A stretch of DNA of 39,797 nt from Saprospiraceae bacterium (GCA_020627825.1 JAHDGD010000021.1:1-39797), one strand, 5' to 3'; positions 6,524 through 37,888 are shown, counted from the first letter of the stretch. Notes: generated from the letters alone by a model not told the origin. Numbers and translations are program-made.

Positions 6524-7387
6524 CAGATCAATAAAGCGAAATAATTTATACAGTTGGAATGCCGTCATTGAAGGCTTTTCTGAGTATATAGATTGATTTA
6601 TCCATCGTTCTAGCGGTTTTCGAAATATCAATAGAACTTGAAGTAAACTGGAGCGATTCAGTTTAGAATAAAATCTGACCAATCTGGTTTTCACTCCTTG
6701 GTCAATTAATACAGGTAAATGTTCAATAGCTTGATTTGTTTTATCAAGGAATACTTCATTTTTCTCAAGACCAGCATGCTCTACAGGATTATCCAGATGC
6801 TGTATCAAGATATTATGCTCTTCCAATTGGAGGGCTAATAGGGTATCTTCATGACCATAAGATGTGAGTTGTTCTTCAAATCTGAACTTAAGAAAAAGGT
6901 CTCTTTTAATTAAAAAATTATTGGATCTGAAACTAAGATAAGGGTTCCTTTTTCGTTTTCTAGCAGGTTGCGCCTCAACTTTGCGTCCGTAGGTCCAATG
7001 TAATATTTTACTTTTACCTGGTTTTTTCTTTTTATAGGTTGTGCCTCCATATAAAACATCAGCTCCATCCATATGCTTTATGTACTTTTGGACGAAAGTC
7101 CTATGCCGAATAAATTGATCACAATCAAGAAACACTATGGTATCAAAGCGAGCATTTTTAGCTAGCCAATTTCGTATTTTCGAACGCCCCATATTCTTGG
7201 ACAACTCTATATATCCTACGCCTGACTTAGAAGCTAAAACAGCATTTTTATCGCGGTATTTTTGAAGAGAATAGTCGTCATAGACGAGGATTTCGAATTC
7301 TATATTCAATTTTTTACATTGGTCAAAAAGCTCGTTAACTAATGTGTTTACATCACGGTTATAAACAGGAATCAAAAAAGAAATCAC
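6503..7387 (-). CDS. Glycosyltransferase family 2 protein
   Basis: This 294-residue GT-A fold glycosyltransferase transfers a sugar from a nucleotide-sugar donor. The N-terminal strand is ISFLIPVYNRD; VYDDYS is the first acidic motif and FLDCDQ (near residue 90) takes the place of the DxD metal site. GHEDTLLALQLEE (near 178) is the C-terminal E-D motif common in GT2 enzymes. The start is a GTG at 7387: an in-frame stop lies 13 bp upstream and no ATG exists between. It begins 7 bp after the stop of the upstream GT2 gene, so the two are surely co-transcribed. A GGACGAAAGTCC palindrome (7090-7101) lies in the coding sequence. The acceptor is unknown; cell-surface polysaccharide or glycolipid is likely. 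Confidence 0.88.
   Translation of the reverse strand: MISFLIPVYNRDVNTLVNELFDQCKKLNIEFEILVYDDYSLQKYRDKNAVLASKSGVGYIELSKNMGRSKIRNWLAKNARFDTIVFLDCDQFIRHRTFVQKYIKHMDGADVLYGGTTYKKKKPGKSKILHWTYGRKVEAQPARKRKRNPYLSFRSNNFLIKRDLFLKFRFEEQLTSYGHEDTLLALQLEEHNILIQHLDNPVEHAGLEKNEVFLDKTNQAIEHLPVLIDQGVKTRLVRFYSKLNRSSLLQVLLIFRKPLERWINQSIYSEKPSMTAFQLYKLFRFIDLKKKQEG
7090..7101. repeat. Palindrome family member, GGAC-GAAA-GTCC variant (coding)
   Basis: GGACGAAAGTCC is preceded by CTTTT. The 17-bp string from 7085 to 7101 is identical to 11355-11371. Here it encodes part of RTFVQK in the GT2 gene. It has four-base arms around a GNRA-type loop and lacks the A-run on the right. It could be chance within a normal codon context. 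Confidence 0.4.
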
Positions 7388-7394
7388 AAAGCTA

Positions 7395-8105
7395 TTATTT
7401 TAAGCTAAAGCTATACATTTTTTTCAGAGTACTGGGGCTTACGCCCAAAAGGAATGCTAAGAATACCATGAAATTTACGAGATTGACCTTGAGATAAGAG
7501 TTTTTATGATACTTTCTACTGCTGACTATGGCAGGGTTCTGAATGATAGCGAGTGGAATCGATGCACGTTTTAACTTGCGAATAAGTGCAAAGTCTTCCA
7601 TAATCACATAATTCGCATCATATCCATTATGATTTTGAAAAAGTTCTCTTGTAAAAAATTGGCATTGGTCACCTCCACCAGCAAAGAGTCCATCTTTTCT
7701 GGTAAACTTTGCATTAATAGCTAGCCATTTATTGGAAGGGTTAAAATCATAGGCAAAAAAGCCTGCACGATATCCATCTTCTATTTGTTCAATTATATCC
7801 TTCTCAAATGTGCTTGGCGGAATTACATCAGCATGTAAAAACATGAAGATATTACCTTGAGCTATCTTAGCTCCATGGTTCATTTGAAGCGCTCTACTAG
7901 CGCAAGATATTGAATAGTAAGGTATCGAAAAAGAATTGCAGACTGCTTCTGAACGATCTGTAGTCGCATCACATGAGACTACTATAATTTCAGAATTCTT
8001 CGTATGTTTTAATAGATATGGAAGTAACTTTTCCAATCTTTTTTCTTCATTCAGAATCGGAATGATGATGCTAATTAAAGGAGAACTATCTTGCTTTACT
8101 GCCAT
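7395..8105 (-). CDS. GT2 glycosyltransferase, TIGR04283-like
   Basis: This 236-residue protein matches the TIGR04283 subfamily of GT2 enzymes as I know it. It has SIIIPILNEEKRL at the N-terminus, SRALQMNHGAK near residue 70, MFLHADVIPP (DxD-type site), GGGDQCQFFTRELF, YVIMEDFALIRKL and a conserved hydrophobic C-terminus FLLGVSPSTLKKMY. Members are often next to radical-SAM or arsenic-related genes; here the partner is a second GT2 gene 7 bp downstream. The substrate is unknown. A GGGC-TTAC-GCCC palindrome at 7435-7446 falls in the LLGVSP codons. Confidence 0.88.
   Translation of the reverse strand: MAVKQDSSPLISIIIPILNEEKRLEKLLPYLLKHTKNSEIIVVSCDATTDRSEAVCNSFSIPYYSISCASRALQMNHGAKIAQGNIFMFLHADVIPPSTFEKDIIEQIEDGYRAGFFAYDFNPSNKWLAINAKFTRKDGLFAGGGDQCQFFTRELFQNHNGYDANYVIMEDFALIRKLKRASIPLAIIQNPAIVSSRKYHKNSYLKVNLVNFMVFLAFLLGVSPSTLKKMYSFSLK
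7435..7446. repeat. Possible palindrome family member, GGGC-TTAC-GCCC (coding)
   Basis: On the minus strand this reads GGGC-GTAA-GCCC, a 4-bp stem with a GNRA-type loop, followed on the plus strand by AAAA. It encodes LGVSP, which is also the expected family sequence at this position, so its membership in the repeat family is doubtful. Confidence 0.3.
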
Positions 8106-8256
8106 ATCTTAAAAACTTAAATATACTGGTAATTCTTTAAGTAAACCTTTCTCTTTGCGTAAATTTTAAGATAAGTTTAAGCAATAAGAATCAAACAAAT
8201 TGTTGTAATTTGAACTTTTACTTTCATTCAATCAACGAACAATCTAATCAAAGCAT

Positions 8257-9009
8257 ATGAAATGGATATTGCTCTTAGCCATCACCTTTGTTGCGCTTCA
8301 CATTGATGCCCAAACAAGTAACAAACATGTTCAAACTTCAAAAGATTTTCTTAACGCCTTAAAGAATGGAGAGAATACAGATCAATATGCTAAAGCTTAT
8401 GAAGGTTTTACTGTAGAGGAATTAACACAGTCACTTGATACAGATTCGAAGCGCTATGCTTTCTGGATTAATACGTACAATGCGTTCATCATCAGAAAAT
8501 TAACTGCTAATCCGTCCTTGTACGAGAATAGAGGATCATTTTTTAAAAATCGATTTATACATATAGGAGGTGAAATGATTGCCTTTGCAGATATTGAACA
8601 TGGTTTGTTGCGTCATTCACAATTTGAATATTTCCTAGGGTATGTTACCAATCCTTTTGCAGGTAGTTGGGAAAGAAAACTACGAGTTAAAGAAAGAGAC
8701 TATAGGATACATTTTGCATTAAATTGTGGAGCGAATGCTTGTCCACCTGTAGGTATATACGACGACACCTTACTAGATCAGCAATTAGACAATAATTCTA
8801 AAAAATTCCTTACAAAATTTACATCCGTAAAAGATGGAAAAATTTATAGTACAAGTCTTTTTTCGTGGTTCAGAGGTGATTTCGGAGGAATAAAAGGTGC
8901 AAAAAATATACTAGTGGAATACGGTATAATCGGTGAAGAAGATAAGTCCAAAGACTTTGACTTAAGTTACGACTGGACTTTAAATATAGACAACTACGTA
9001 GAATATTAA
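8257..9009 (+). CDS. Secreted DUF547 domain protein
   Basis: This 250-residue protein has a signal peptide (residues 1-18, IDA|Q) and one DUF547 domain. The diagnostic blocks are YAFWINTYNAFI (near 67), the HFALNCGANACPP block (near 150) with conserved His and Cys, and LSYDWTLN near the C-terminus. The biochemical role of DUF547 is not established; the conserved residues suggest a peptidase-like or hydrolase-like activity, which is inference. It is divergent from the glycosyltransferase pair and 48 bp upstream of the DUF4272 gene. Confidence 0.85.
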   Translation: MKWILLLAITFVALHIDAQTSNKHVQTSKDFLNALKNGENTDQYAKAYEGFTVEELTQSLDTDSKRYAFWINTYNAFIIRKLTANPSLYENRGSFFKNRFIHIGGEMIAFADIEHGLLRHSQFEYFLGYVTNPFAGSWERKLRVKERDYRIHFALNCGANACPPVGIYDDTLLDQQLDNNSKKFLTKFTSVKDGKIYSTSLFSWFRGDFGGIKGAKNILVEYGIIGEEDKSKDFDLSYDWTLNIDNYVEY

Positions 9010-9057
9010 ATTCGTTCTGTATTCGAAATAAAGGCAAACATTCTATATTTACTCCAT

Positions 9058-10266
9058 ATGGAACATTGCACATTATACAGTCACTATTTAAAATTTGATA
9101 AAATAGTCGATATTTTAAAAGATCACCTTCCCCACGCTAAAATTGAGAAAGAAGAGAATGGCATTCACAAAAAAATTGTAGCAACAATAAAGGGTGGAAT
9201 CTTTAGCAAAACTAAAACCTTAAGTCTCAACTATAGAGAGCGAACAACACCATCATACAATCTTGAACATGCTACATGTCCATTAAGTAAAAACTTGAAA
9301 GGGATGACACAATTTGTGCATTCTATTCCATTTGAAAATCAAGCCTTAAAGTCAAAATTTCTCCATAAAATAATGGCCTCTAATGCTGAGATAGCTTTCA
9401 TAGGTGATCCCAAAATCAATGAACAATTTCGTTTAATTTTAAAAAGGATTACAGTAGAATTAGACGCCTTTATTTTTACAAATTCGAATTCTATTTTTCA
9501 CTTATCCGAACATCAACATTTTGTGGACAAACACTTCAAATTGATTATTGATGCACATGGTAATAGTAAAGTTGATGCAATTGATGTCCAAATTGAATCA
9601 AAATATCATGCGTCACATAAAGATGAAATTTCAGAAGAACAACAATTGAGAAAAGAAAAATCAGAACGTTATCTAACATCTAAAGGCGTAAAAGTCAATG
9701 TTCATCTTCCATGTGTAGAGTCAAGTACACAAATCAAATTACGTACGAAATCAGAATTGATTCATAGGATTTATGCTTTGCTTGTTATAGCAGCTCGAGG
9801 AGAAGGAGTTGAACAAAAAAGGCTTCAACAATTGATGGAAGAAAAAAACATTATTTCGTTGTCACCAAAAGAAAAATCTGTTTTTTATCAAGATGAATTA
9901 AGTCCAGAGGATCAGGCGTATGCAACATGGAGATACGAAAGTTTAAATACCTTATTATGGGCAGTTCATGAAGCACCACTCCCCTATCCTTCAGCTATTT
10001 GCAATGTTCAAGAAATAGTAGGGAAACTTGTCCAAAAAGATAAAGCGACCTTTACGAAATCTTGGACCATCAGGTCAGCACATGAAGTTCTTGATGCACT
10101 AGATGAAATATATCGTATGAATTGGGCATGTGTTGATGCAAGATTAAAAGGAACTTCACCAGAGGGAGAATTAAATCCAGGGGTCGTTTATGAACGTCAT
10201 TACGCCTTAAATTGGCTGACTAATTATCAAGATTTGGAGTGGGATGATGTAACAACAGATACTTGA
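9058..10266 (+). CDS. DUF4272 domain protein
   Basis: This 402-residue protein has no signal peptide and is probably cytoplasmic. Residues about 195-400 match DUF4272: SERYLTSKGVKVN, RIYALLVIAARGEG, LSPKEKSVFYQDELSPEDQAY broken by family-typical spacing, WRYESLNTLLWAVHEAPLPYP, ILD-like VLDALDEIYRMNWA and YERHYALNWL...WDDVTTDT at the end. The first ~190 residues form a separate region I do not recognise. The function is unknown. It follows the DUF547 gene by 48 bp and is convergent with the barrel gene. Confidence 0.85.
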   Translation: MEHCTLYSHYLKFDKIVDILKDHLPHAKIEKEENGIHKKIVATIKGGIFSKTKTLSLNYRERTTPSYNLEHATCPLSKNLKGMTQFVHSIPFENQALKSKFLHKIMASNAEIAFIGDPKINEQFRLILKRITVELDAFIFTNSNSIFHLSEHQHFVDKHFKLIIDAHGNSKVDAIDVQIESKYHASHKDEISEEQQLRKEKSERYLTSKGVKVNVHLPCVESSTQIKLRTKSELIHRIYALLVIAARGEGVEQKRLQQLMEEKNIISLSPKEKSVFYQDELSPEDQAYATWRYESLNTLLWAVHEAPLPYPSAICNVQEIVGKLVQKDKATFTKSWTIRSAHEVLDALDEIYRMNWACVDARLKGTSPEGELNPGVVYERHYALNWLTNYQDLEWDDVTTDT

Positions 10267-10318
10267 TTTTGGAACAAAAATCGAAGAATCTTATTGAAGA
10301 AATAATCTTACATTAATG

Positions 10319-11410
10319 TCAAAACGCTTCTCCTATTGTAATATAAAATTGAACATCTTCCACCCCTTTAGCAAAGTCTAGTCTAAGATTACTTTTTTCT
10401 TTTTTTGTAAGTTGAAATCTAAGTCCTATACCAAATGCAGGTTTCCAACTTTCGTTAAATTGTCCTAAATACGTTGAAGAAAAAGTGCTTATGGAAGTAA
10501 ATGCCACGCCAGTCAACCTTTTATAAATGGGATAACGATATTCTATTTGGGCTAAAGTATTATTGCGGTCAATAAATCTCCTATCGTTATATCCTCTTCC
10601 TGCAAAAAAATAATAATTGAAAAAAGGAACATTACCAAATTGAGTTCCTGTAAAAAGATTGAGTCCGATAATGTGCTGCTTTTTAATAGGGACAAATTTT
10701 CTAGCGATCAATGAAACACCTGTAAAAGTGAAATCTGAAAAACTATAAGCACTTCCATGTTCCAATATCAATTCTGTAAAATTTCCTTTGCTCGGATAAA
10801 ATATGTTATCCCTTGAATCGTATGAAATACTTAACCCTATGGTACTTACTGTTCCCCCTTCAATACCTAAGGGATTATCATTTGATAGAACTTCACCAGT
10901 TGTAGGGATTTCAAAAACATCAATTTTATTTCGAATACCTACAAACACTTCATCTGTCAACCTGTATGAAACTGTATTAATAATTCTAGGAAAATTAGCT
11001 CCATAAATTTCCAGATTAGAAGCAGGACTATCTATTCCAATTCCGTAGTAATTGTAGAAATATCTATAAAACCCAAGTTCACCTTGTGTCTTCCATTTAT
11101 CGTTAAAATACAACTCGTAAGGTACGAATACTAAAATTTGATTCTTAAGTGTATAGGCTAGCCCAATCCCTACTTGTGATTTCCTCCACTTTTCTTTTTC
11201 ACCAATATTAAAAATTGAAATACCAAGAGCTCCGAAGGCCAAACCAGTTTCAGGTAAGAAAAACGCAATAGGAAAAGCTGTTATACTAAAATCTTTTGCA
11301 GTATTGTACAAGCTATCGTTTTCCAGAGTATGATCTTCCTCATTTTGTGCAAAGCTTTTGGACGAAAGTCCCAAAAATAATGCGAGTAAAAGCGCAAATA
11401 ATCTCATCAT
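10319..11410 (-). CDS. BamA/TamA-type outer-membrane beta-barrel (Omp85 C-terminal domain, no POTRA)
   Basis: This 363-residue protein has a signal peptide (about 1-21, SFA|Q) followed directly by a 16-strand-type bacterial surface antigen domain. Visible motifs are YDSRDNIFYPSKGNF (near 195), GRGYNDRRFIDRN (near 270, the equivalent of the conserved RGY lid-lock loop), QIEYRYPI and a terminal Phe (YITIGEAF). At 363 residues there is no room for POTRA domains, as in the short patatin-associated or stand-alone Omp85 barrels common in Bacteroidota. It starts 1 bp after the TauE gene ends. The signal peptide contains a palindrome (11356-11376) coding FLGLSSK. Confidence 0.87.
   Translation of the reverse strand: MMRLFALLLALFLGLSSKSFAQNEEDHTLENDSLYNTAKDFSITAFPIAFFLPETGLAFGALGISIFNIGEKEKWRKSQVGIGLAYTLKNQILVFVPYELYFNDKWKTQGELGFYRYFYNYYGIGIDSPASNLEIYGANFPRIINTVSYRLTDEVFVGIRNKIDVFEIPTTGEVLSNDNPLGIEGGTVSTIGLSISYDSRDNIFYPSKGNFTELILEHGSAYSFSDFTFTGVSLIARKFVPIKKQHIIGLNLFTGTQFGNVPFFNYYFFAGRGYNDRRFIDRNNTLAQIEYRYPIYKRLTGVAFTSISTFSSTYLGQFNESWKPAFGIGLRFQLTKKEKSNLRLDFAKGVEDVQFYITIGEAF
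11356..11376. repeat. Palindrome family member in a signal-peptide coding region
   Basis: TTTTGGAC-GAAA-GTCC is followed by CAAAAA: 8-bp arms with one bulged C around a GAAA (GNRA) loop. Read on the minus strand it encodes LFLGLSSKS just before the signal-peptidase site of the barrel protein, the same relative frame as the T9SS-tail copies (LFLGSSPKK). Confidence 0.6.
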
Positions 11411-11411
11411 A

Positions 11412-12137
11412 CTAAAACAGAATAAAAATAGCTCCTATTGCTGTTGCAATTAATAAAAATTTTCGATACCAATCCTCTGTAAAATAACGGACAATCCGCA
11501 GCCCCAAAAAGAAACCAATGATCACAGCTGGAACTAAATATACATCTATGAGAATAGATTCTCGCGTTATGGTATGCCAAGAAAAAATGTGGACGGGTAA
11601 TTTGACAACATTCGTTAATAAAAACAACCAAGCAGCAGTCCCTATGAATTCATTTTTTGGTAGTCGTGTTGATAAAAAATAAATATTAGCAAAAGGTCCG
11701 GCTAGATTACCTATCATAGTTGTAAATCCAGCTGTTACTCCCATAGCATATCCGAACCATTTACTGTGAGATACTGATTGAGAATTTTGTAGATCTCTAT
11801 AAAATAAAACGACTACAGATATTAAAATAATAACCGCCATCCAGAATTTAAATGCTTTTTCATCCAAAAAATGACCCACAAAAGCTGCTAGAATTACACC
11901 GAGTAGAACAACAGGTAGAAAAGACCAGAGATACTTCCACTTTACATGCTTTTTATAATATACAACACTTAGAACATCACCAACTAATAATAAAGGTAAT
12001 AAGATTCCTGTGGAGGCCTTTGCATCAAATGCATTCGCCATGAGAGCCACTATGATAATCCCTACTCCTTTAACACCAGCTTTGGCGACACCAAGAATAA
12101 AAGCAGAGATCAAAGCCAGAATGATAGGAATACTCAT
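11412..12137 (-). CDS. TauE/SafE (TSUP) family membrane permease
   Basis: This 241-residue integral membrane protein has about 8 hydrophobic helices. It carries the family pattern of two repeated halves: GVAKAGVKGVGIIIVALMA in the first and GVTAGFTTMIGNLAGP in the second. TSUP members export or import sulfite, sulfoacetate or other small anions; the substrate cannot be read from the sequence. It lies in a tight minus-strand run, 22 bp after the methyltransferase and 1 bp before the BamA-like gene. Confidence 0.87.
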   Translation of the reverse strand: MSIPIILALISAFILGVAKAGVKGVGIIIVALMANAFDAKASTGILLPLLLVGDVLSVVYYKKHVKWKYLWSFLPVVLLGVILAAFVGHFLDEKAFKFWMAVIILISVVVLFYRDLQNSQSVSHSKWFGYAMGVTAGFTTMIGNLAGPFANIYFLSTRLPKNEFIGTAAWLFLLTNVVKLPVHIFSWHTITRESILIDVYLVPAVIIGFFLGLRIVRYFTEDWYRKFLLIATAIGAIFILF

Positions 12138-12159
12138 AAATTATCGATAAAATTTATCC

Positions 12160-12891: not shown

Positions 12892-12936
12892 CTATACTTT
12901 TGACTTTAAATACATACTAAGATTATCAAGCATCAG

Positions 12937-13158: not shown

Positions 13159-13455
13159 TTATTCAAAAATGATATTGAATAAAAGCTGCTTAAATATATG
13201 ACAAATATTTATAATATATAGGAATTTACAGGTATTCATTTCATCAAAAACGAATCTCTATTAGCGACGTGTGAATTCAGTTGGTGTTCAGGATTATTTT
13301 ACTTTGGACGTAAGTCCCTTCATCTTAAAACACAATCCCCTATATGTGTCAGTAAAAATGATTTCATCTCCTTTATTCACGATAAAATAAAAGTTTATGG
13401 CTAATTGAGTGATACAAAGTAATGATTCTTATTATTTTTACGTTTTTCGTATTAA
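13159..13455. other. Intergenic region between divergent genes, with one palindrome
   Basis: This A+T-rich region separates the minus-strand run from the helicase. It contains the GGAC-GTAA-GTCC palindrome at 13306-13317. A 12-codon ORF starting at the ATG at 13423 ends in TAG just before the helicase frame opens. No RNA gene was recognised. Confidence 0.5.
13306..13317. repeat. Palindrome family member, GGAC-GTAA-GTCC (intergenic)
   Basis: A 4-bp stem closes a GTAA (GNRA-type) loop, preceded by ACTTT and followed by CTT. It differs from the 7090 and 11356 copies by one base in the loop, and it lies in non-coding DNA. Confidence 0.5.
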
Positions 13456-15015: not shown

Positions 15016-15098
15016 TCATTTACGCATAAAATAGGTCAAATTCCTATTAATCATTAGTTTAAAATTTAGCGAAAGTATGATGTTGATGGTGGGCGAAT

Positions 15099-20415: not shown

Positions 20416-20823
20416 ATGATGAAAAACATAATCTTAAGCATGATCCTTCTAATATTACTTTGGTCATGCTCCTCCGACAACTCTATTATTGATCGTGCAC
20501 AAGGGCAATGGAATCTGCAATATACCGAAGGTCCTGATGGAAACAATATCTTAACTATGCCATGGACCGTTTTAATCATAGAGGATCATTTATTTACTTT
20601 ATCCGACAACAAAGAGGAGGATATAAAAGAAATTGCTAACGGTCAATTAATCCCATGTGATAATGCTATTTTAAACAATTGTTTCACATTTGAATTTGAG
20701 CAAAAAAATACGGATGCTCAAATGGACTTAGAAATTAATACGTCTAAAATATTAAGGTTTAATAATGGTAAATTTAGTGTAGAAGGAATTCACAATATGG
20801 AAGTATCTTATTTTTTTGAATAA
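20416..20823 (+). CDS. Small lipoprotein, unknown function
   Basis: This 135-residue protein has a lipobox LLWSC (Cys18) followed by SSDNS. The body begins AQGQWNLQYTEGPDG, reminiscent of small lipocalin-like Bacteroidota lipoproteins, but I cannot assign a family. It is divergent from the NTF2-like gene. A GGGCTCGAGCCC palindrome starts immediately after its stop codon. Confidence 0.75.
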   Translation: MMKNIILSMILLILLWSCSSDNSIIDRAQGQWNLQYTEGPDGNNILTMPWTVLIIEDHLFTLSDNKEEDIKEIANGQLIPCDNAILNNCFTFEFEQKNTDAQMDLEINTSKILRFNNGKFSVEGIHNMEVSYFFE

Positions 20824-20824
20824 T

Positions 20825-20848
20825 TTTTTTGGGCTCGAGCCCAAAAAA
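20825..20848. repeat. Palindrome family member, perfect 24-bp copy (intergenic)
   Basis: Six T, GGGCTCGAGCCC (20831-20842) and six A form a perfect 24-bp palindrome starting one base after the lipoprotein stop codon. The A-run follows the hairpin on both strands, so it is not an intrinsic terminator. Confidence 0.85.
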
Positions 20849-21068: not shown

Positions 21069-21435
21069 GGGGCTGAACGGTATCGACAGGAATGATATTC
21101 GGTTAGTAAGCATGCAGGGGAATGATTGTTTACTCCTTAAAGATGACAATCGAACTATAATTGGCGAAAGAAACTTCGCACTAGCTGCCTAATCTAGGAT
21201 TAGAAAGCTTTTTGGGCCGCTCGCTTGACGTCTGATACACAGCGATGCCGCCTATCAAACAACTTTCGGACTAGGGAAAGAGGATGTTCCGACTCCTACC
21301 CGAAATTTAGGAAATAAGCTGATGGCCGGTGGCTTTTACACCACGCCTGATGACGAAAATCTAAAGTAAAAGCTAAGCATGTAGAAAGCTCTCCGTTGCT
21401 TTCTCTGGACCAGAGTTCGAATCTCTGCAGCTCCA
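21069..21435 (+). ncRNA. ssrA: tmRNA (transfer-messenger RNA)
   Basis: The 5' end GGGGCTGAACGG (21069) pairs with CAGCTCC (21428-21434) to form a 7-bp tRNA-like acceptor stem with one G-U pair. The 3' arm includes GTTCGAATC, the T-loop motif. The CCA tail is not encoded in full (the DNA reads CCACAA), so it is added later. The tag frame runs 21163-21192, GGC GAA AGA AAC TTC GCA CTA GCT GCC TAA, giving GERNFALAA, a degradation tag of the Bacteroidota ALAA-ending type. tmRNA with SmpB rescues stalled ribosomes. Confidence 0.96.
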
Positions 21436-21462
21436 CAAGAACTATTTTATGTCAATTAGTTA

Positions 21463-24161: not shown

Positions 24162-25112
24162 TCATTCTTTAATAAAGGAACTTATAAACTGTTCACCTTT
24201 TTTGTCTGTAACTCTTATCATATAATACCCACTTACTAAATCTTGTAACTGTATCATATTTCCAGGATTCTTCTTAAGGTAAACCACTTGTCCATCAGCT
24301 GCTAAAATTTCTACTTTTTCATAGGTTTTCTTTGGGCTCGAGCCCAAAAATAATTGATCATAAACTGGATTCGGATAAAACGTAATAGTTTCTTTTTCCA
24401 GTCGCGCATGTACAACCTCAGAATACGAATAGGTGCCATTATAATCTACTTGTTGTAAACGATAATAATTTATTCCACTCATGGGTTCAATGTCTGTAAA
24501 TCCATATTCTTGATGGCTAACCGAAGTACCTTGACCATTCACTTTTGCAAGTGTTTTCCAATTTCTTAAGTCTGAACTTCTTTCCAATATAAAATGACTA
24601 TTATGTATTTCAGATTCTGTTTCCCATAATAGATCAACTTCGTATGCATCGATATACGCCTCAAATTTTGATAGCTGGACAGGAAGAGGTGCTTCTACTG
24701 TTAAAAGACCATTCGTTTCATCATCAAATGTCCATAAAACACCGCCATCCGTTGTACAACGACATTTGTACTCGTAAAATCCTTCAGGTAAGTCAAGTGT
24801 GCCTACATATTCATCATTATTCCCTATATCAACATTATACGTCATAGGAACACTTGTAATATTCGTCCATGTATCTCCTACTCCAACCATGCTAACTTCT
24901 CCATAATAAATCTCGCAATCTATTCCAGCACCTTGTCCTGCTGGTTCTGTTATCCCCGGTTCATATACTTGGACATAAATAGTAAAACTCTCTCCTTCAT
25001 TTATTGTCCCCACATCGGGAAAACGATTGCCCACATAGTCAGGTTGTGCAATTCCTAAATAAGCTGTAAAGGTTAATAAAAGTGTAAGTAGTTTGGTAAC
25101 ATTTTTCATCAT
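24162..25112 (-). CDS. T9SS-sorted protein with N-terminal Ig-like domain
   Basis: Translation from the tandem ATGs at 25112 gives 316-317 residues. An in-frame ATG at 25154 would put 14 polar residues before the signal peptide and is less likely. A signal peptide (AYLGIA|Q) leads into a beta-sandwich module (about 25-140: INEGESFTIYVQVYEPG, YVGTLDLPEGFYEYKCR). A fibronectin-like segment common before T9SS tails follows (LPVQLSKFEAY...VDLLWETESEIHNSHFILERSSD...YYRLQQVDYNG), then a T9SS type A sorting domain (FYPNPV to FIKE). The palindrome at 24331-24348 encodes FLGSSPKK inside the tail. It is divergent from the alpha-amylase, so a starch-related role is possible. Confidence 0.82.
   Translation of the reverse strand: MMKNVTKLLTLLLTFTAYLGIAQPDYVGNRFPDVGTINEGESFTIYVQVYEPGITEPAGQGAGIDCEIYYGEVSMVGVGDTWTNITSVPMTYNVDIGNNDEYVGTLDLPEGFYEYKCRCTTDGGVLWTFDDETNGLLTVEAPLPVQLSKFEAYIDAYEVDLLWETESEIHNSHFILERSSDLRNWKTLAKVNGQGTSVSHQEYGFTDIEPMSGINYYRLQQVDYNGTYSYSEVVHARLEKETITFYPNPVYDQLFLGSSPKKTYEKVEILAADGQVVYLKKNPGNMIQLQDLVSGYYMIRVTDKKGEQFISSFIKE
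24331..24348. repeat. Palindrome family member inside a T9SS sorting domain
   Basis: TTT-GGGCTCGAGCCC-AAA (18-bp perfect palindrome, core 24334-24345), followed by AATAA. Read on the minus strand it encodes LFLGSSPKK directly after the YPNPVYDQ start of the sorting domain. Confidence 0.85.
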
Positions 25113-25476
25113 CTCAATTTTAATAGGTTGGCATTTTATCATACAATTATACAATCAAAATAAATTGCTTTCGGTTTAATGCAGTTCGTTGAATATTTTT
25201 GGAATATGGATGTGTAATCTAAAATAAAGCATACATAATAAAACATAAAATATATGTACATTTTCTATGTATAAAGATATTAGTTTTTCATTAAATTTGA
25301 ATACTATACACCCCTTTTAACTTCAGCTGGAATTAATTGAGCTGGAAAAATCAAAGAAAACTTTTTAATTTAGGTATTTGGTTGCACAACAGGCAAGTCA
25401 TATTGACTACAACTTGGATATCAACAACCAAAATTACCTAAAAAAAACACCCAAATGGGTTCTTAAAAAACAGCGT
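25113..25476. other. Divergent intergenic region
   Basis: This 364-bp A+T-rich region lies between the T9SS protein gene (-) and the alpha-amylase gene (+). An open frame begins at a TTG at 25378 but encodes a polar stretch before the signal peptide, so I treat it as leader. No repeat or RNA was recognised. Confidence 0.5.
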
Positions 25477-28032: not shown

Positions 28033-30759
28033 TTATTTTTTAACAAATGATTGAGTCCAAATAGAACCGCTTTCATCTGTAATTTTAAGCACATAATACC
28101 CTGAAACAAGTTGTTGAACTGCAATAGAATGACCAGGTGATGTTTCACTATACACCAATTGTCCGTTTGTATTTATTATCTCTACTTTTTTAAACGATTT
28201 TTTTGGGCTCGAGCCCAAAAATAAATATGGTCCTACAGGATTCGGATATAATTCAATGCTTGAAACTTCATTTTCTTCCGTAGTACTAAGAAAATCGAAA
28301 TCCATCCAATTGAGATTAAATAATGGCTGTGTAATTCTCAATCTCATAGTATATCTTCCACTTGGCAAAATGGCATAAGATTCAGTAGTTGTCCAATTTT
28401 GCCAACCATCTGTAGAAGTGAATTGCACTTCCTCTATCTTTGTTTCTTCATTTTCTTCATCAATCAAGATCAACTCAAGACCTCCTGATCCTCCATCAGA
28501 CGCATTTCTGAACTTGATTCGATAACTTCCTCCTGTAGGAATATAAACATCATAATCACAAAAATCCCCTACATCCAAATAACCAATATTCTCTCCTCCT
28601 CCCACATCAGTGGTATTTTCCAGTTGAATTCCTTCATGATAAATGTATTCTTCTGCCTGGATTCGAGTAGGAATCGTAAAAAATGAAGGCAGGTTGTTCT
28701 TGATATCTTTTTTATCAAATGCTTCCAAAGGATCATCATCTGTTGACACTATGGTGTTACCAGTATAACTCAGTTGTACTTTGTCTGAGTAGATGATCTC
28801 CTCATTTATCGTTAAATCAATAAAACGTACTTCACCTTGAGTAAAGTTAGCTTCAGAAACTGAAAAAGCTACATCATTGATGTATACAGTGAAATCCTCC
28901 TTTTTAAGTGTATTCGTGGCAAAGGAAAGATATTTATTAGTATTAAATGAAACAACAGTATTGCTATCAACTGTTCCCGACACAAATTGAGTTTCAACAT
29001 CAGATATTTCACCTGTTTTGTTAAACTCAAACCAACCTACGTTATATCCTGCTCCATCAATATGAAAAGCAATGTGATCAGTATCTTCATAGATCGGTAT
29101 ATTATGTACAGCTGTGGTCTGCCAATTTTGATATCCTCCTGAAAAAGGAACAAAAGGCGTATTACTAATTATGGCACCATCTGCCGAAAAGTAAAACCGT
29201 CCGCCTTCCGAACCTGCCGCAGTTCTAACATTAATCGAATATCTACCTTCTTCCAGATCCGTCATGCTATATTTCAACCATTCATCTTTACTGGTCCACC
29301 CTACATTATATCCTACGTCATTTTGAACATCCTCTGTAGGTTCTATGTCAACACCATCATTTCGATATGACCATCCATTATTCCATGCCGTGTACGTACC
29401 CGTGCTCACATGATAGGTGGCAACATCTTGATCTTTATAGGCTACCCCATTGGGACCATAGTCATAATGTACAGCATAAATCCTTCCCGGTATATAATGA
29501 TCGATGAAAGGAATACTCCCCTCCTCTTGCACTTGTCTGAACATGGCATCAATTACTCCCGCTTCAACAGTACAATGTTGCAATTTATAATCTTCCACTA
29601 AAGCGAATAAAGCATCACTTGCTTCAGCAGCAGAGGGTTTCGGACCTGATCCATTCCCGTAATCTAAGATGGCTTGATACCCTTCTGTTTTTGACACAGA
29701 TAACGGTCCAGCTATAGCCTCAACTTTTTTTAATGGCCACCAAGCCCAACCAATATTATGCTCTTCCAATAAAGCGATTGCATCGCGAAACCATTGATTC
29801 GAATTCTCACCACTTTCTCCAAGATATAAAGGGACATTATGGGCATCTCGTATATCCAACACCCATTGAATAGATGCTTGATCATTAATGCTCCAGTACT
29901 TATGTGGACTATATACGATCTCTTCATCCCAAGGAGGTGTTAAACCAGTAAAATCATTCGCGAACCAATTTCCTTCAATGAATAAAATATGTTCTTGATC
30001 TACGGTTCTTATACTATCCGTTATTCTTTCGTACACTTCTCTTAATAAGGTTCCTCCAGGTAAATTCCAGTTGGGTTCATTAATTAAGTCATATCCAGCA
30101 ACCCATTTTTCATTTTTATATCGAATCGCCAGTTGCTTCCATAATGAAGCTAACTTTTCTTGATTTGCAGGGCTTTCCCACAAAGAAGGTTTACTTGCAT
30201 CATAGTCAGAGATACCTTCGTCGTAACCTTGTCCGCCTGGCGTGGCGTGCATATCAAGGATTACATACATATCATAAGCTGCACACCAAGAAATCAATGA
30301 ATCCGTTAATTCAAAGCCTTTTTCAAGCCATGTATTTTCTCCGGGAATTGGTTCTTCTTCGATAGGAAGCGTATACAGATTATAGTGCATGGGCAGACGA
30401 ACCGAATTGAATCCCCATTCTTTTAATTGTTCCACATCTTCTTTCGTCATGTAATTTGCCAACCATTTCGAGTAAAATTCTTCTGTTTCAGTTTCACCGA
30501 TAAGGTCTTCAATAAAGGACTTAATTTTATGTTGTGGGTTCGCAAAACCAGCTGTTTGCAGCATATAGCCTTCTTGAACCATCCATCCACCAAGTCCCAT
30601 TCCACGAAGTAAAACTTCTTCTCCTTGTTCATTAACAATCTGTGTTCCGTTAGTGGTTAATAGACTTTGGGCTCGAGCCCAAAAAGAAAAAAATACACAT
30701 AGAATGACAACGAAAAACTTCGTTCTAGTTTCTTTCAAAGACGCGGACATAATCAACAA
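28033..30759 (-). CDS. Secreted GH5 glycoside hydrolase with CBM6 modules and T9SS sorting domain
   Basis: This 908-residue protein has a signal peptide (cleavage WARA|Q, residue 30) and a GH5 barrel at about 35-380. The acid/base is E228 in DLINEPNW and the nucleophile E315 in LYLGESGENS; further barrel signatures are RLPMHYN and ILDMHATPGG. A CBM6-like module spans about 420-560, an X2-like beta domain about 570-680, a second CBM6 (RIQAEEYIYHEG...NLNWMDFDF) about 700-830 and a T9SS type A tail 837-908. With the GH16 partner this points to beta-1,3/1,4-glucan breakdown. It overlaps the GH16 stop by 26-35 bp and no start codon lies further in, so it is translationally coupled. It carries the palindrome twice: at the signal-peptidase site (30666-30683) and in the sorting tail (28200-28221), in different frames. 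Confidence 0.92.
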   Translation of the reverse strand: MLIMSASLKETRTKFFVVILCVFFSFWARAQSLLTTNGTQIVNEQGEEVLLRGMGLGGWMVQEGYMLQTAGFANPQHKIKSFIEDLIGETETEEFYSKWLANYMTKEDVEQLKEWGFNSVRLPMHYNLYTLPIEEEPIPGENTWLEKGFELTDSLISWCAAYDMYVILDMHATPGGQGYDEGISDYDASKPSLWESPANQEKLASLWKQLAIRYKNEKWVAGYDLINEPNWNLPGGTLLREVYERITDSIRTVDQEHILFIEGNWFANDFTGLTPPWDEEIVYSPHKYWSINDQASIQWVLDIRDAHNVPLYLGESGENSNQWFRDAIALLEEHNIGWAWWPLKKVEAIAGPLSVSKTEGYQAILDYGNGSGPKPSAAEASDALFALVEDYKLQHCTVEAGVIDAMFRQVQEEGSIPFIDHYIPGRIYAVHYDYGPNGVAYKDQDVATYHVSTGTYTAWNNGWSYRNDGVDIEPTEDVQNDVGYNVGWTSKDEWLKYSMTDLEEGRYSINVRTAAGSEGGRFYFSADGAIISNTPFVPFSGGYQNWQTTAVHNIPIYEDTDHIAFHIDGAGYNVGWFEFNKTGEISDVETQFVSGTVDSNTVVSFNTNKYLSFATNTLKKEDFTVYINDVAFSVSEANFTQGEVRFIDLTINEEIIYSDKVQLSYTGNTIVSTDDDPLEAFDKKDIKNNLPSFFTIPTRIQAEEYIYHEGIQLENTTDVGGGENIGYLDVGDFCDYDVYIPTGGSYRIKFRNASDGGSGGLELILIDEENEETKIEEVQFTSTDGWQNWTTTESYAILPSGRYTMRLRITQPLFNLNWMDFDFLSTTEENEVSSIELYPNPVGPYLFLGSSPKKSFKKVEIINTNGQLVYSETSPGHSIAVQQLVSGYYVLKITDESGSIWTQSFVKK
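28200..28221. repeat. Palindrome family member inside the GH5 T9SS tail
   Basis: A 22-bp perfect palindrome centred on GGGCTCGAGCCC (28205-28216) encodes LFLGSSPKK on the minus strand, at the same place in the sorting domain as the 24331 copy. Codons on both sides have diverged between the two genes, while the core plus the right-hand AAAAATAA is identical. Confidence 0.85.
30666..30683. repeat. Palindrome family member forming a signal-peptidase site
   Basis: An 18-bp perfect palindrome (core GGGCTCGAGCCC, 30669-30680). On the minus strand it is read as TTT TGG GCT CGA GCC CAA, giving FWARAQ, i.e. the A-R-A|Q cleavage motif of the GH5 signal peptide. This is a different frame from the copy in the same gene's tail. 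Confidence 0.85.
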
Positions 30760-31909: not shown

Positions 31910-32247
31910 TGTAATTTAATATGTTTTGTAATTTCATTCCTGTATTGTGATGTATTAAAAACATCAAAACTTCAATAAATATTTGATTTGATCCTTGTTG
32001 ATGTAGTTAGAGAATTGACAAGAGATAATAAAAAAAGGCGATCAAATATATACTAGGCTAAAGGTAAAAAAAGTTTAACTGTTTAACCTGCATAATCAAA
32101 TAGAACTTCGCAATCAAGACTTAAATGCCATAGAAAAATAATTCTTAAAATGAAAAAGAAAAGATTTCATATGGTATAATGCAGGTCATACCATTAAAAT
32201 GCTAAATTGTATTAATTCAATAAATTTATCTTCATAAATTCATCTAT
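31910..32247. other. Divergent intergenic region
   Basis: This 338-bp A+T-rich region lies between the GH16 gene (-) and the ClpP-like lipoprotein gene (+). A weak promoter-like TTG (32207) with TATCTTCA (32227-32234) precedes the latter. Two tandem GTTTAAC units lie at about 32070-32086. No gene was seen. Confidence 0.45.
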
Positions 32248-32844: not shown

Positions 32845-33049
32845 ACCTATTGAGAATCTGATTTTGAGATCACGAACACCCTCATTATAGAATTGACCTT
32901 CAAGGCTATACATTCAATCTAATCAGGATTGCACATTGAAAAACCAAACTCAAGAGCACAGAATGTAAACCCGAATAGGTGAAGGAAGCGACAAGGTTGA
33001 ATCAATACATAAATCAGCCTGAATAACTGTTCCTAAATAACTGCCCAAA

Positions 33050-33092
33050 TAAAAATAATAAAGCGCCTTTATCACCAGTGGATAAAGACGCT
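33050..33092 (-). terminator. Intrinsic terminator of the DUF937-OmpA gene
   Basis: Read on the minus strand, AGCGTCTTTATC and GATAAAGGCGCT form a 12-bp stem (one U-G pair) with a 7-nt loop, followed by a T-rich run. It lies 42 bp past the stop of the gene at 33134-34777. Confidence 0.75.
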
Positions 33093-33133
33093 CCATTTCG
33101 TCTATTGTAGTTTCTTATTTACGCTTTATATCG

Positions 33134-34777
33134 TTACTTGGATGCGATTTCAATTTTGTTATCACCAGTTCCCATTCCTTTGAAAGAAATTTGACCATCT
33201 TTTACACCCAAAGTTACAAGCATATTATGCACGATCTCTGCTCTTGTTTTAGAGATTGCCTTATTTTTCATATCTCCACCACCGTCATTCGTATATGCTT
33301 GAACGACAACTTTTCCTGTAGGATTTGCTTTCAATGCTTCAGCAAGACCTTCAATTTCGTTTTTGCTAAAGTTTGTAATTCTAGTTCCTTCATCATTGAA
33401 TTCGATGTCATGTAACATATAGTTAGTAGCTGCGCCTTCTTTCTTCGTTATCAATCCAGTGAATAAACCGGTCATTGCTTCTTTTGTCTTCATTGCAGCA
33501 TCACCAACAGCGTCTGCAGCAGCACCAGCAGCATCAGTTACAGCTCCAGCTGCACCTTTAAGCATGTTCACAAATTTTGCCCAAGCTCTTCCTAATTTAT
33601 TTCCGTCTTTATCGTAGAAAAATCCGTTTTTAACTTCGAACTCTCCAGCTTTAGAAATGATATTACCATCAGCATCAACTAAGTCACCAGCATCATTCAA
33701 CATCAATTTTGTACCGCTGTATTTACCTAAGAAAGCTTTAATTCTGTCTAATAAAGTAGATGGAACTTTTGACGCCTCTACCAAAATACTTCCATTTTCA
33801 CCTATAATGTTACCATCAGCATCAAGTGCATAGTTATTTCCAGATAGAATTACATTTCCATCAGCATCAACGAAATCTCCATTTGCATTCAAAGTTGCTT
33901 TTGAAAGATCATACCCTCCATCAGGAACAGAAATAGTCGTAGTTGTTGTTCCAGAAGTTGTTGTAGAAGAACCACCGTCAGTTGACATATCTGTTGTCGT
34001 AGTTGTTGTTCCAGAAGTTGTAGTCGCGTCTCCTGTCATCTCTGTTTTGTCTTCTGCATCATCAGCCATTTTATCTTTTGAACCAAAAATTCCAGCTTTA
34101 CTTAATCCAAATAATACAGCACCGATCAGTAGAAGTGGTAGCAACCATTTCCACCATCCTCCACCGCCATTGTCATCGTTTCCACCTGAAGTAACTGCTC
34201 CTCTTGCAGCGCTTGCAGTAGCTCCTACTTTTGAAGCCGCAGAATCTGCAAATCCCATTAACCCTGACATACCTGGTATAAGTCCTGATATACTAGATTT
34301 TTGATCTGTAAGATAAGAGCTTAATTTTTTTGCTCCCCATCCGTTTTTGAAAACCATTCCTGCTAATTTTCTCATCACGATTGGTGCTAAAAATTTCAAC
34401 AACATAGAACCACCAGCTTTTTTAATACCAGTCATTCCTATTAATTTTTCAAGGATACTATCTTGTTTGTTACCAAAAATACTTCCTAGTAAATCCCCAC
34501 CTGATTCTAACATGGATTTACTTTTATTAGGATTTCCCATCACATCCATTAAGTCATCCATTCCTAAGTCCGAAAGACCTTTATTCTTAAAAATGTCCAA
34601 TAACCCTGCTGCTCCTGATTCTGTATTCCCTTTAGAAATAAGTCCTCCAATAATTGCAGGTAAAAATTTACCGACTGCAGACCCCATAGATGAGGAATCC
34701 AATCCGATTAATGATGATGCTTTGCTAATTACCGCATCTGTAAGCATTGACTTCGCACTGTCAAGTAAAGTAGTCAT
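33134..34777 (-). CDS. DUF937 and OmpA-like envelope-spanning protein
   Basis: This 547-residue protein has an N-terminal DUF937 domain (about 1-180: FLPAIIGGLISKG) and no signal peptide. A single transmembrane helix WKWLLPLLLIGAVLFGL lies at 209-226. Then come a Thr-rich spacer with two copies of TTTSGTTTTT, a run of four D-[AK]-DGN loops (about 304-392) that look like short Ca-binding or YD-type repeats, an Ala-rich amphipathic stretch (about 405-435) and an OmpA-like domain (451-547, VQAYTNDGGGD...KTRAEIVHNML with Asp and Arg at the peptidoglycan-binding positions). The topology would put DUF937 in the cytoplasm and OmpA on the cell wall. Similar DUF937-OmpA proteins are common in Bacteroidota; the function is unknown. 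Confidence 0.87.
   Translation of the reverse strand: MTTLLDSAKSMLTDAVISKASSLIGLDSSSMGSAVGKFLPAIIGGLISKGNTESGAAGLLDIFKNKGLSDLGMDDLMDVMGNPNKSKSMLESGGDLLGSIFGNKQDSILEKLIGMTGIKKAGGSMLLKFLAPIVMRKLAGMVFKNGWGAKKLSSYLTDQKSSISGLIPGMSGLMGFADSAASKVGATASAARGAVTSGGNDDNGGGGWWKWLLPLLLIGAVLFGLSKAGIFGSKDKMADDAEDKTEMTGDATTTSGTTTTTTDMSTDGGSSTTTSGTTTTTISVPDGGYDLSKATLNANGDFVDADGNVILSGNNYALDADGNIIGENGSILVEASKVPSTLLDRIKAFLGKYSGTKLMLNDAGDLVDADGNIISKAGEFEVKNGFFYDKDGNKLGRAWAKFVNMLKGAAGAVTDAAGAAADAVGDAAMKTKEAMTGLFTGLITKKEGAATNYMLHDIEFNDEGTRITNFSKNEIEGLAEALKANPTGKVVVQAYTNDGGGDMKNKAISKTRAEIVHNMLVTLGVKDGQISFKGMGTGDNKIEIASK
33936..34021. repeat. Pair of 26-bp direct repeats (60-bp period) in the Thr-rich linker
   Basis: Identical 26-bp units at 33936-33961 and 33996-34021 encode TTTSGTTTTT twice in the DUF937-OmpA protein. 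This is a probable recent tandem duplication in a flexible periplasmic spacer. Confidence 0.8.
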
Positions 34778-34939
34778 AAAAATTGTTTGAAAATGAGTTA
34801 ATATAATTTTTTAAGATGTGTAACTCTAAAGTTAATAGTTAAGTGTGAAAAAAAGTTCCTTTAAGAAATCTAAATTTTAACACTTTTCTATTGCTTAGAC
34901 TTAACAGATATTCAACCCCACATTTTTTCTTAACAATTT

Positions 34940-36997
34940 TTATTCTATTATTCGATATTTATCACACCATGCGACGGTGTATGCTACTTTATTAATTAGA
35001 TTACTTGGACGTGAAGCAATCCCATGTGACGCACCAGGTATTTCAACCAACATTGTTTCAATCTTTCTTAATTTAAGGGCATGATACAATTGCTTCGCCT
35101 CACTAGGAGGAGTCCTTAAGTCATTCATACCTACCATTACCATTGTAGGTGTTTCTATATTACCCACTAGTGAGATAGGTGAAAACTTCCAGTAATTATC
35201 GACGTTTTCCCACGGCTGACCTGGATATCTGTAATTTGCATATCCATAATAATTATCTGCAACCAAGGTCTTACTTATCCAATTCATCACAGGTTTGTGC
35301 ACCACAGCTGCTTGAAAACGATTATTCTTCCCTATAATCCAGGCCGTCATTATGCCTCCTGCAGATCCTCCAGTTACATATAATTGATCTTCCGTTGTGA
35401 TTCCTCTTTTAATTAATTCATCAACTCCATCCATGACATCTTGATAATCATCACCTGGATAATTATTATACAATAAGTCACCAAATTCTTCTCCATAACT
35501 TGTAGAACCTCTAGGGTTTGGATAAAAAACGATATATCCTTTTGATGCATACAACTGAAGCTCTGCACTGAACCTTTCTCCATAATTTAAAATAGGACCT
35601 CCATGGTTTTCAATAAGAAGCGGTCCTGGTTTATCTTTATCATATGCTGGTGGATAAATAATCCATCCTTGAATTTCCCTATTATCTACTGTAGATTGAT
35701 ACTTGATCTCTTCAACTTCTCCCCATTCAACAATGTTATTTAATTCTTGATTCAGATCGGTCAATTGTAATTCCTTCCCTCTTTTATTTACAATGGCTAA
35801 ATTCGACAATGAAGTAGTACTTGTCTTTGTATAAACTACTGCGCCTTTTTCACTTACATCAAATTGGCCACTGGCATAAGGCCTTCCTACTGTAGTGCCT
35901 CCCATATCCTGAGCTATTGGCTTAAGAAAGCCAGCTGAATTCACTGATGCGATCTTTGTTACACCATAATCGTCATAACTAAAAACAATTTCTTTTCCGT
36001 TTTTCCTCCATTGAAAATCTTTTATGCTTCTATCTAATCCTCCCGTCCATATCGTCTTTTGTGAACCATCGTTTTGCATAACATGTAACTGAGTTAGCTG
36101 ATAGGTTCTGATTTTATCCTCATACCCCAAATAAGCTATCCACTTACCATCAGGAGATACTTTTGGACTATATTCTGGGCCAAAATTTGCTGAAACTTGT
36201 GTAATTTCCTTTGTATCAATATGAACTTTGTAAATATTAGAGTTTCGAAATTGATATTCACGATCTTGTTCTCTATTTGCTGAAAAGACGATATGCTTTC
36301 CATCTTGCATCCATGAAATTCCTCCAGAATAATTAAAATCTCCTGTACTACATTGCCTTACTTTTCCACCATTGGAAGGAATAATAAAAATATGCGTAAA
36401 TCCATCTTTTAAATATCCTCTTCCATCAGCTTCATGATTCAGTCTAGTTGTTAATCTCGGTTTTTTTGCCCACTCTGCTCCTTTCGGTGCAGCTATTCTG
36501 GGCACTTCGAGTTTAGGCCCCTTGCCTGAAACAAACATTTTAAACGCTATGTAACTATCGTCAGGTGACCACATCAAGGCAGATGGGGAACTACTCAACT
36601 GAGAAATACTTGCTATCACACCACTTTCTTTCCATAAAACGTGAATTTCTGAACCTTCTTCTGTTCGACTTACAAATGCAATGCGCTTACCATCATGTGA
36701 CCAACATGCAGCATATTCACCTGATTTTAAGTTCGTCAACTTGCGATGTTCAGAACCATCTTTATTCACAATCCATAATTCACCTACACGCCGATCTTTC
36801 ATCACATCAAATGAATTCCTAGTATATATGATTTCTTTCCCATCAGGTGAAATCTTCGGATTACTAGCATATTGTAAATCGAATACATCCATATAATCGA
36901 ATGGTCTTTTCTCTACCTGAGCGTGAGAGAAACATAGACCGAAAAACGCAATAATGAATAGGTTGATTGCTCTTGATTTATTAAAATAGAAATGCAT
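34940..36997 (-). CDS. S9 family prolyl oligopeptidase-type serine peptidase
   Basis: This 685-residue exported peptidase has a signal peptide (1-26, SHA|Q), a WD40-like/PD40 beta-propeller (about 30-410, repeated SPDGKWIAY- and SHDGKRIAF-type blades) and a C-terminal alpha/beta-hydrolase domain. The catalytic triad by position is S545 (GGSAGG), D626 (GMNDLRTPP) and H658 (GASHGIA). The family cleaves dipeptides or acyl-amino acids from short peptides in the periplasm. It stands alone, 163 bp downstream of the DUF937-OmpA start on the same strand. Confidence 0.92.
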   Translation of the reverse strand: MHFYFNKSRAINLFIIAFFGLCFSHAQVEKRPFDYMDVFDLQYASNPKISPDGKEIIYTRNSFDVMKDRRVGELWIVNKDGSEHRKLTNLKSGEYAACWSHDGKRIAFVSRTEEGSEIHVLWKESGVIASISQLSSSPSALMWSPDDSYIAFKMFVSGKGPKLEVPRIAAPKGAEWAKKPRLTTRLNHEADGRGYLKDGFTHIFIIPSNGGKVRQCSTGDFNYSGGISWMQDGKHIVFSANREQDREYQFRNSNIYKVHIDTKEITQVSANFGPEYSPKVSPDGKWIAYLGYEDKIRTYQLTQLHVMQNDGSQKTIWTGGLDRSIKDFQWRKNGKEIVFSYDDYGVTKIASVNSAGFLKPIAQDMGGTTVGRPYASGQFDVSEKGAVVYTKTSTTSLSNLAIVNKRGKELQLTDLNQELNNIVEWGEVEEIKYQSTVDNREIQGWIIYPPAYDKDKPGPLLIENHGGPILNYGERFSAELQLYASKGYIVFYPNPRGSTSYGEEFGDLLYNNYPGDDYQDVMDGVDELIKRGITTEDQLYVTGGSAGGIMTAWIIGKNNRFQAAVVHKPVMNWISKTLVADNYYGYANYRYPGQPWENVDNYWKFSPISLVGNIETPTMVMVGMNDLRTPPSEAKQLYHALKLRKIETMLVEIPGASHGIASRPSNLINKVAYTVAWCDKYRIIE

Positions 36998-37185
36998 AAA
37001 TATTATGATCTTGATGAGCAGTAAATATATACCTATCCTATATACTGCACAATGAAGGCAATATTTAAGTCTACAAATAGATCATAGTCTTACCTCCTAT
37101 TTTTACGTATTCCTAGTTTAACTTCTTTTTCACTTTTACTTTATAAATCATATAGTATCTTTACCATACACTAATACAACTCATC

Positions 37186-37746
37186 ATGAAATATATTACT
37201 TCCACATTTCTTTTTACTTTTCTATTACCAATTTTTCTTTTTAGCCAACAAACAGAGCATGTCCATAAACTTTACATGCCACTTCTCCTTGGATCTGGAT
37301 ATGGGTACGAATGGAGTATAATTTCTCCTGTCACACTGAATGTCGGAATAGATTATCGCTCGTACATTGGTGACGAAGATTTTGCTTTGGACAATGTTGT
37401 TTTTTCACCAAGAATACATGTTGAACCAAGATATTACTACAACATAAAGAAACGCCATGCAAAAGGAAAAAATACAGCATTCAATTCTGCAAATTATTTC
37501 TCAATAGCTATTAGTAGAGAGTTTGAAGGATTTGATTTTGGTGCAATTCGAGATTCACCAGAACATGTTATTCGCATGCTTCCTTCCTTAGGCTTAAGAA
37601 GAGTTTTAGCGAATCATTTTACAATAGACTTGAGTATATTTGCTGGCTACAAAACTGGGCCACTGGACCAATTGACATTTATTGAAGCAGTAGAAAATGG
37701 CAAAAGAACTTTTGGAGGTAATGTTATTTTAGCGCATGTCTTTTGA
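37186..37746 (+). CDS. Exported hypothetical protein, probable small beta-barrel
   Basis: This 186-residue protein has a signal peptide (1-20, LFS|Q), then alternating hydrophobic strands (LYMPLLLGSGYGYEW, VTLNVGIDYRSYIG, HVEPRYYYNI, YFSIAISREFEG, FTIDLSIFAGY) and a C-terminal Phe (NVILAHVF). This fits a small outer-membrane protein. I recognise no family. A palindrome lies 30 bp after its stop. Confidence 0.7.
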   Translation: MKYITSTFLFTFLLPIFLFSQQTEHVHKLYMPLLLGSGYGYEWSIISPVTLNVGIDYRSYIGDEDFALDNVVFSPRIHVEPRYYYNIKKRHAKGKNTAFNSANYFSIAISREFEGFDFGAIRDSPEHVIRMLPSLGLRRVLANHFTIDLSIFAGYKTGPLDQLTFIEAVENGKRTFGGNVILAHVF

Positions 37747-37775
37747 TTGTGAGATAGGTATAGAATGTGTTTTTA

Positions 37776-37800
37776 TTTTTTGGGGCTTTAAGCCCAAAAA
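37776..37800. repeat. Palindrome family member, odd-centre variant (intergenic)
   Basis: T-run, G, then GGGCTTTAAGCCC (37783-37795) and five A. The centre is an unpaired T, so arms are GGGCTT/AAGCCC. It lies between the small exported protein and the CoA-transferase, 67 bp before a second copy. Confidence 0.75.
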
Positions 37801-37866
37801 GAATATGAAATCATATTGCTGACTCATAAAAGAAGAGGCCCTATCTTTATTTTGCAATTATTTTAT

Positions 37867-37888
37867 TTTTTGGGCTTGAGCCCAAAAA
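37867..37888. repeat. Palindrome family member, GGGC-TTGA-GCCC (leader)
   Basis: Five T, GGGCTTGAGCCC (37872-37883) and five A. It sits 45 bp upstream of the GTG start of the CoA-transferase gene. If an upstream TTG were used it would encode FLGLSPK. Confidence 0.8.

Follow-up and report, generated by a model that had tools for sequence, protein, structure and literature searches.

In this study we found a family of small DNA hairpins in a stretch of 39,797 nucleotides (GCA_020627825.1 JAHDGD010000021.1:1-39797, contig C114, hereafter the window) from the 4.46 Mb draft genome G000, a metagenome-assembled genome of an uncultured Saprospiraceae bacterium. The element has the form 5'-TTTT-stem-GNAA (or other small loop)-stem', with a stem of 2-4 bp closed by C-GNAA-G or a different small loop and a dialect base before the T-tract, and it represents one dialect of a signal at the DNA level, which occurs at hundreds of sites per genome in an orientation not tied to transcription. 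The hairpin family is patchy across Saprospiraceae, each copy-rich genome has its own dialect, and copies are created and kept through base substitution rather than insertion. It is very probably a maintained genome signal that is recognised through pairing, and we know of no other genome-scale motif recognised in this way. Such a hairpin word in hundreds of copies looks like an unrecognised genome 'watermark', for example a self-DNA uptake signal. The genomes compared were mostly drafts assembled from metagenomes, open reading frames (ORFs) were called mechanically, and ortholog comparisons were drawn from sampled stretches rather than whole genomes.

Exact GGGCTCGAGCCC is located at 20831, 24334, 28205, and 30669 of the window, flanked by T/A runs at all four positions, together with GGGCTTGAGCCC at 37872, GGACGAAAGTCC at 7090 and 11360, GGACGTAAGTCC at 13306, and GGGCTTTAAGCCC at 37783. 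An earlier note on this DNA had placed these copies and runs correctly and missed two more, GGGCTTACGCCC at 7435 and GGGGCTTGACCCC at 5459. The order of T before and A after holds for the palindromes, and the GGAC/GNAA subgroup is constant on the T side only. As the note had also proposed, the excess is far beyond chance: GGGCTCGAGCCC with at most 2 mismatches has 6 matches in the window (0.15 expected from shuffles), and the exact word has 129 copies in the whole G000 genome against 0 for the reversed control, and the dispersed family is real. Only 1-5 exact copies are present in the genus-mates of G000 and 0-1 elsewhere in the family, therefore the expansion of the exact word in one lineage is recent. 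In agreement with the note, no description of a hairpin signal was found in the literature library searched, where the papers containing the 12-mer all deal with other topics and no paper has the GNAA forms.

The role of pairing was evident from how the arms vary. In a 601-kb sample of G000, partly picked around known sites and partly not, there is a strong excess of GGGC-N4-GCCC and GGGC-N5-GCCC hairpins, whose loops are of few kinds (TCGA, GAAA/TTTC, TTAAA/TTTAA, and CCCA/TGGG), alongside the further stems GGAC..GTCC and TGGC..GCCA. Several stems and loops thus coexist within one genome, and there is no single fixed palindrome of the HIP1 kind. In G000, G001, and G003, the TTTTGG...CC spacing peaks at gaps 6-9 alone, the background being flat, and in G002 the peak is weak. 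Among the G000 loop-4 hairpins deviating in both arms, 33 are complementary and 49 are other doubles, with about 4.5 complementary ones expected by an arithmetic estimate. Genome G101 has G-C as its innermost variable pair in 107 copies, C-G in 24, A-T in 20, and T-A in 4 (155 complementary), with 9 copies non-complementary; decoys with a changed prefix or loop stayed at background level, while the true pattern gave 155 paired and 7 unpaired. No conserved sequence was found outside the hairpin and T-tract. The dimeric double-stranded DNA-binding site suggested in the earlier note fits these data less well, because the varying arms co-vary and the loop is 4 or 5 nt, which pairing explains better than two independent half-sites. 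Half-site binding was likewise rejected, since TTTTGGGC rarely lacks its partner in the sample (147 paired, 32 alone).

The dialects were surveyed with the probe TTTKGRCGNAAGYCM, counted across 150 Saprospiraceae genomes. The counts were 385 in G113, 286 in G000, 137 in G003, 136 in G164, 120 in G002, and 109 in G101 (controls 0-1 in G113, G000, G003, G164, and G101, and mostly 0-3 over the survey), and 108 and 100, respectively, in the two genomes of genus g27; most genera had 0-2, and counts were broadly uniform within genera. The base preceding the T-tract marks the dialect: GT precedes TT in 36 of the 36 first-round G101 copies, and genome-wide GTTTTGGCGNAAGC and CTTTTGGCGNAAGC have 780 and 3 copies in G101, 1 and 45 in G000, and 9 and 66 in G113, respectively. 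G101 and some G000 stretches were picked around known sites, so local densities are inflated there, and whole-genome counts are unaffected; the G101 assembly is 85% complete. G001 and G113 have the forms TTT-KGRC-GNAA-GYCM. In the wider Bacteroidota the probe is at background in most genomes; one genus of another family (G239, G313, G371, G387) has a mild excess of 10-13 against 1-3 in the control. Searches of IMG/VR returned nothing for the 18-mer and single matches only for exact 15-mers, one per viral stretch. Some other repeats were also observed. In G025 (L151:15447, L152:3989), TTTTGGGCTAAAGCCC is embedded in a longer exact repeat, ACCCAACAAAGTGCTATTTTGGGCTAAAGCCCGATATTTTTAATGC, therefore the G025 counts are partly those of another repeat family; a longer palindromic repeat containing TGGCCGAAGGCCAgacc, REP-like in look, is common to two other Saprospiraceae genomes, G083 (L137, L138) and G124 (L147); and TAGC-CTTA-GCTA, perhaps an unrelated repeat, has 7 copies in 266 kb of G001.

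When copies inside genes were aligned with orthologs from other sampled genomes, the alignment across the site was gapless in 76 cases and gapped in 13, therefore copies arise by substitution and not by insertion. Letters may change while the hairpin is kept, as in GGGCTCGAGCCC (LGSSPK) of G000 and GGGTTTAACCC (LGLTQK) of its G001 ortholog, in the orthologous hairpins GGGCTGGGGCCC and GGGTCAAGCCC of one signal peptide, or in GGACTTACGTCC of G001 and GGCCTTTCGGCC of G113. Other orthologous sites conserve 15-18 identical bases, while identical windows between G000 and G001 orthologs have a background of 0.8% (15 nt) and 0.31% (18 nt). Most sites are not common to more distant genomes, indicating that turnover is also real. 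A comparison of orthologous loci had been put forward in the earlier note, and it spoke against the mobile palindrome proposed there. A mobile element of the repetitive extragenic palindromic (REP) or Rickettsia type, inserted in genes and spacers, would account for the dispersal and for the way one sequence has multiplied species-specifically in G000, but with 76 of 89 orthologs gapless, no PF01797 match (the REP-type Y1 transposase, RAYT) in G000-G003, and nothing conserved beyond the hairpin and T-tract, it is mostly refuted and highly improbable. Template switching that perfects imperfect palindromes into functionless mutational products would also yield paired arms and change by substitution only; it leaves the strict prefix base of each genome, the fixed GNAA loops, the patchy phylogeny, and the retention at orthologous sites unexplained, and we already regarded it as very unlikely.

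The signal is strand-symmetric. GTTTTGGCGNAAGC occurs 392 times forward and 388 times reverse in the whole G101 genome, and the GNAA copies, which are mostly genic, show no consistent orientation in genes, being sense and antisense at 62/71 in G101, 15/20 in G113, 16/23 in G001, 19/26 in G000, and 3/17 in G003. One summed count over G000, G001, and G003 had an antisense lean (41:17 antisense:sense), which may reflect codon constraints. Because genic GNAA copies are found in either orientation and G101 is balanced, an mRNA function of the general signal is unlikely, and to this extent the RNA hairpin proposed in the earlier note did not hold; the G000 palindromic form, which is mainly in spacers and often 11-37 nt past stop codons, may still act in this way. 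Spacers of G000 hold 2.3 elements per kb where genes converge, 1.33 where they are codirectional, and 0.61 where they diverge, and a T..A hairpin is seen at 28 of 442 stops, a classical A..T terminator at 7. Such features would suit RNA hairpins at transcript 3' ends that stop an exonuclease or serve termination or stability, the copies inside genes being incidental. However, post-stop clustering is absent in G003 and unclear in G001, the GNAA forms are genic in both orientations, and the order of T before and A after is unable to terminate transcription, so that this explanation of the whole family is improbable, while the G000 palindromic form may have a 3'-end role. The note had rightly set intrinsic terminators aside, as none of the GGGC hairpins in the sample is preceded by A and followed by T.

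Copy spacing is indistinguishable from random. At the sampled loci of G101, G113, G001, G000, and G003, adjacent GNAA hairpins are on opposite strands more often than expected (same-strand 92 of 243, shuffled 109 +/- 6.6, p ~0.005). A chromosome-architecture role, in which hundreds of extruded hairpins or cruciforms are bound by a nucleoid protein, agrees with the dispersal, the strand symmetry, and the random-like spacing, and GC-stem hairpins with T/A-run flanks could extrude under supercoiling. But in G101, whose dialect is the densest, the stem is only 2 bp long and its fold is predicted to be weak (-1.5 kcal/mol), which would make a poor cruciform, and the strict dialect base before TTTT requires sequence-specific reading, so we consider this role unlikely. 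A Chi-like recombination or repair signal, in which a single-stranded hairpin, encountered when ends are resected or forks repaired, controls a helicase-nuclease or promotes recombinase loading, would be species-specific, genic, and frequent like the motif, and most genomes, G000, G003, and G113 among them, have an AddB-type PDDEXK nuclease. This is unlikely too: strand bias is absent and neighbours alternate strand, whereas Chi is strand-biased in most species; Chi is also linear and does not involve pairing, and the nuclease was not found in the 85% complete G101, the genome with the densest motif. PDDEXK_1 presence does not track the motif across genomes.

The strand symmetry, dispersal in genes and spacers, substitution-driven gain, some retention, and dialects together give the profile of a DNA uptake sequence (DUS) or uptake signal sequence (USS). 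Therefore, we tentatively suggest self-DNA recognition during transformation, DUS/USS-like and independent of type IV pili, as the leading mechanism, quite possible though short of an even chance. More specifically, and a shade more tentatively, a clade-specific T-tract with a mini-hairpin, arising by point mutation in hundreds of genes and spacers and defined by pairing, might serve as the mark of self DNA by which a transformation (or recombination) machinery of Bacteroidota works without pili. The reader would recognise the single-stranded or extruded hairpin by sequence plus structure; a receptor independent of type IV pili, or a protein handling single-stranded DNA, would prefer DNA with the dialect of its clade; biased recombination would then let copies accumulate, as proposed for DUS and USS; and as the reader changed, the dialect base would follow. 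The TCGA-loop form, a full palindrome that has expanded in G000, mostly in spacers just past stops, may represent a secondary use or the location of least harm. Transformation without pilus homologs is known for Riemerella, a member of Bacteroidota (PMC8459023), and Riemerella columbina favours its own DNA (PMC7965970), therefore a pilus-independent uptake signal is plausible by analogy.

Several observations weigh against an uptake role. The ATPase of the type IV pilus and type II secretion system (PF00437) was not found in G000, G003, G113, and G101, so the known class of DUS/USS receptor would not be usable in these motif-rich genomes, and searches for PilM were negative, with one weak PilM_2 match per genome that is apparently FtsA-sized. 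Pilus-borne uptake was ruled out by the negative PilM and T2SSE searches. ComEC, whose presence in 146 of the 150 Saprospiraceae genomes agrees with transformation, does not track the motif, because motif-poor genomes have it too. Motif density in G101 is not raised in conserved genes (0.45/kb vs 0.58/kb), a core-versus-accessory comparison that discriminates little, and the 3'-end clustering of the G000 palindromic form is not predicted by uptake. To our knowledge, no known uptake signal relies on base pairing, and with hosts that are uncultured the uptake role is putative. Known uptake signals are those of Neisseriaceae and Pasteurellaceae, whose presumed readers are type IV pilins, and for the choice of DNA by pilus-less Bacteroidota a dialect-bearing signal supplies a concrete word to test. 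Further, motif counts set against gene presence offer a route to the reader, and should that reader not serve uptake, the element would still be a genome-wide signal recognised through pairing.

Copies of the hairpin element in the window and their sequence context
Element	Position	Strand	Context
TTGGGGCTTGACCCC, variant hairpin, CTTGA loop	5457..5471	+	within ORF 441-6443
TTTGGACGAAAGTCC, GNAA type	7087..7101	+	antisense within ORF 6503-7387(-); G003 ortholog aligns gaplessly, without hairpin
TTTGGGCGTAAGCCC, GNAA type	7435..7449	-	within ORF 7395-8105(-)
TTTGGACGAAAGTCC, GNAA type	11357..11371	+	antisense, signal-peptide codons of ORF 10319-11410(-)
TTTGGACGTAAGTCC, GNAA type	13303..13317	+	intergenic
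TTTTTTGGGCTCGAGCCCAAAAAA, perfect 24-bp palindrome	20825..20848	.	core 7 nt past stop of ORF 20416-20823; upstream of transfer-messenger RNA (tmRNA) gene
TTTGGGCTCGAGCCCAAA, 18-bp palindrome	24331..24348	.	type IX secretion system (T9SS) sorting-domain codons (LFLGSSPKK), ORF 24162-25154(-)
22-bp palindrome	28200..28221	.	T9SS sorting-domain codons, ORF 28033-30759(-); position homologous to 24331
18-bp palindrome	30666..30683	.	signal-peptide codons (FWARAQ), ORF 28033-30759(-); reading frame differs from 24331 and 28200 copies
GGGCTTTAAGCCC, 5-nt-loop variant	37783..37795	-	intergenic; 18 copies in 601-kb G000 sample
TTTTTGGGCTTGAGCCCAAAAA, one-base variant	37867..37888	.	start of ORF 37816-38994 (start codon in use uncertain)

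An Rfam scan of the window matched the tmRNA gene alone (21069-21438, RF00023, 118.9 bits), which follows shortly after the 20831 palindrome, and no family related to the hairpin. The paralogous T9SS sorting tails of ORFs 24162-25154 and 28033-30759 both carry the element, and because it is at the same position the two copies may be one event duplicated with the domain. A protein-level cause (sorting tails, signal peptides) was ruled out by the differing reading frames of the palindrome and by the spacer copies.

Compared with known systems, the family is like DUS and USS in being a short genome-specific word with hundreds to thousands of copies on both strands, in genes and spacers, and with clade dialects (Frye et al. 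2013, PMC3630211). Over-representation is strong (780 GTTTTGGCGNAAGC in G101, 129 GGGCTCGAGCCC in G000, controls 0), both strands are equal and untied to transcription (392:388; 62 sense, 71 antisense), and dialects are clade-specific, but the type IV pilus machinery with a pilin receptor of the ComP class appears to be missing, its ATPase being absent from G000, G003, G113, and G101, the stem is base-paired and co-varying, copy number is usually lower, and the uptake role is putative. Chi is likewise a species-specific short signal frequent in coding DNA, but it is fixed, unpaired, and usually strand-biased with replication, whereas the signal here is paired and balanced on the genome strands. 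HIP1, the highly iterated palindrome of cyanobacteria, is also over-represented in genes and spacers; it is one fixed octamer, whereas stem and loop letters change here while pairing persists. REP/RAYT systems have a short prefix and hairpin in hundreds of dispersed copies, but REPs are mostly extragenic and mobilised by a Y1 transposase, and here G000-G003 have no Y1 and there is no insertion signature. Finally, DNA mini-hairpins of the d(GCGNAAGC) type are stable in vitro, and we know of no genome-wide biological role for them. Stabilising mini-hairpin DNA has been put to use (PMC4686876). The core NCGNAAGN of the present element belongs to the same loop class.

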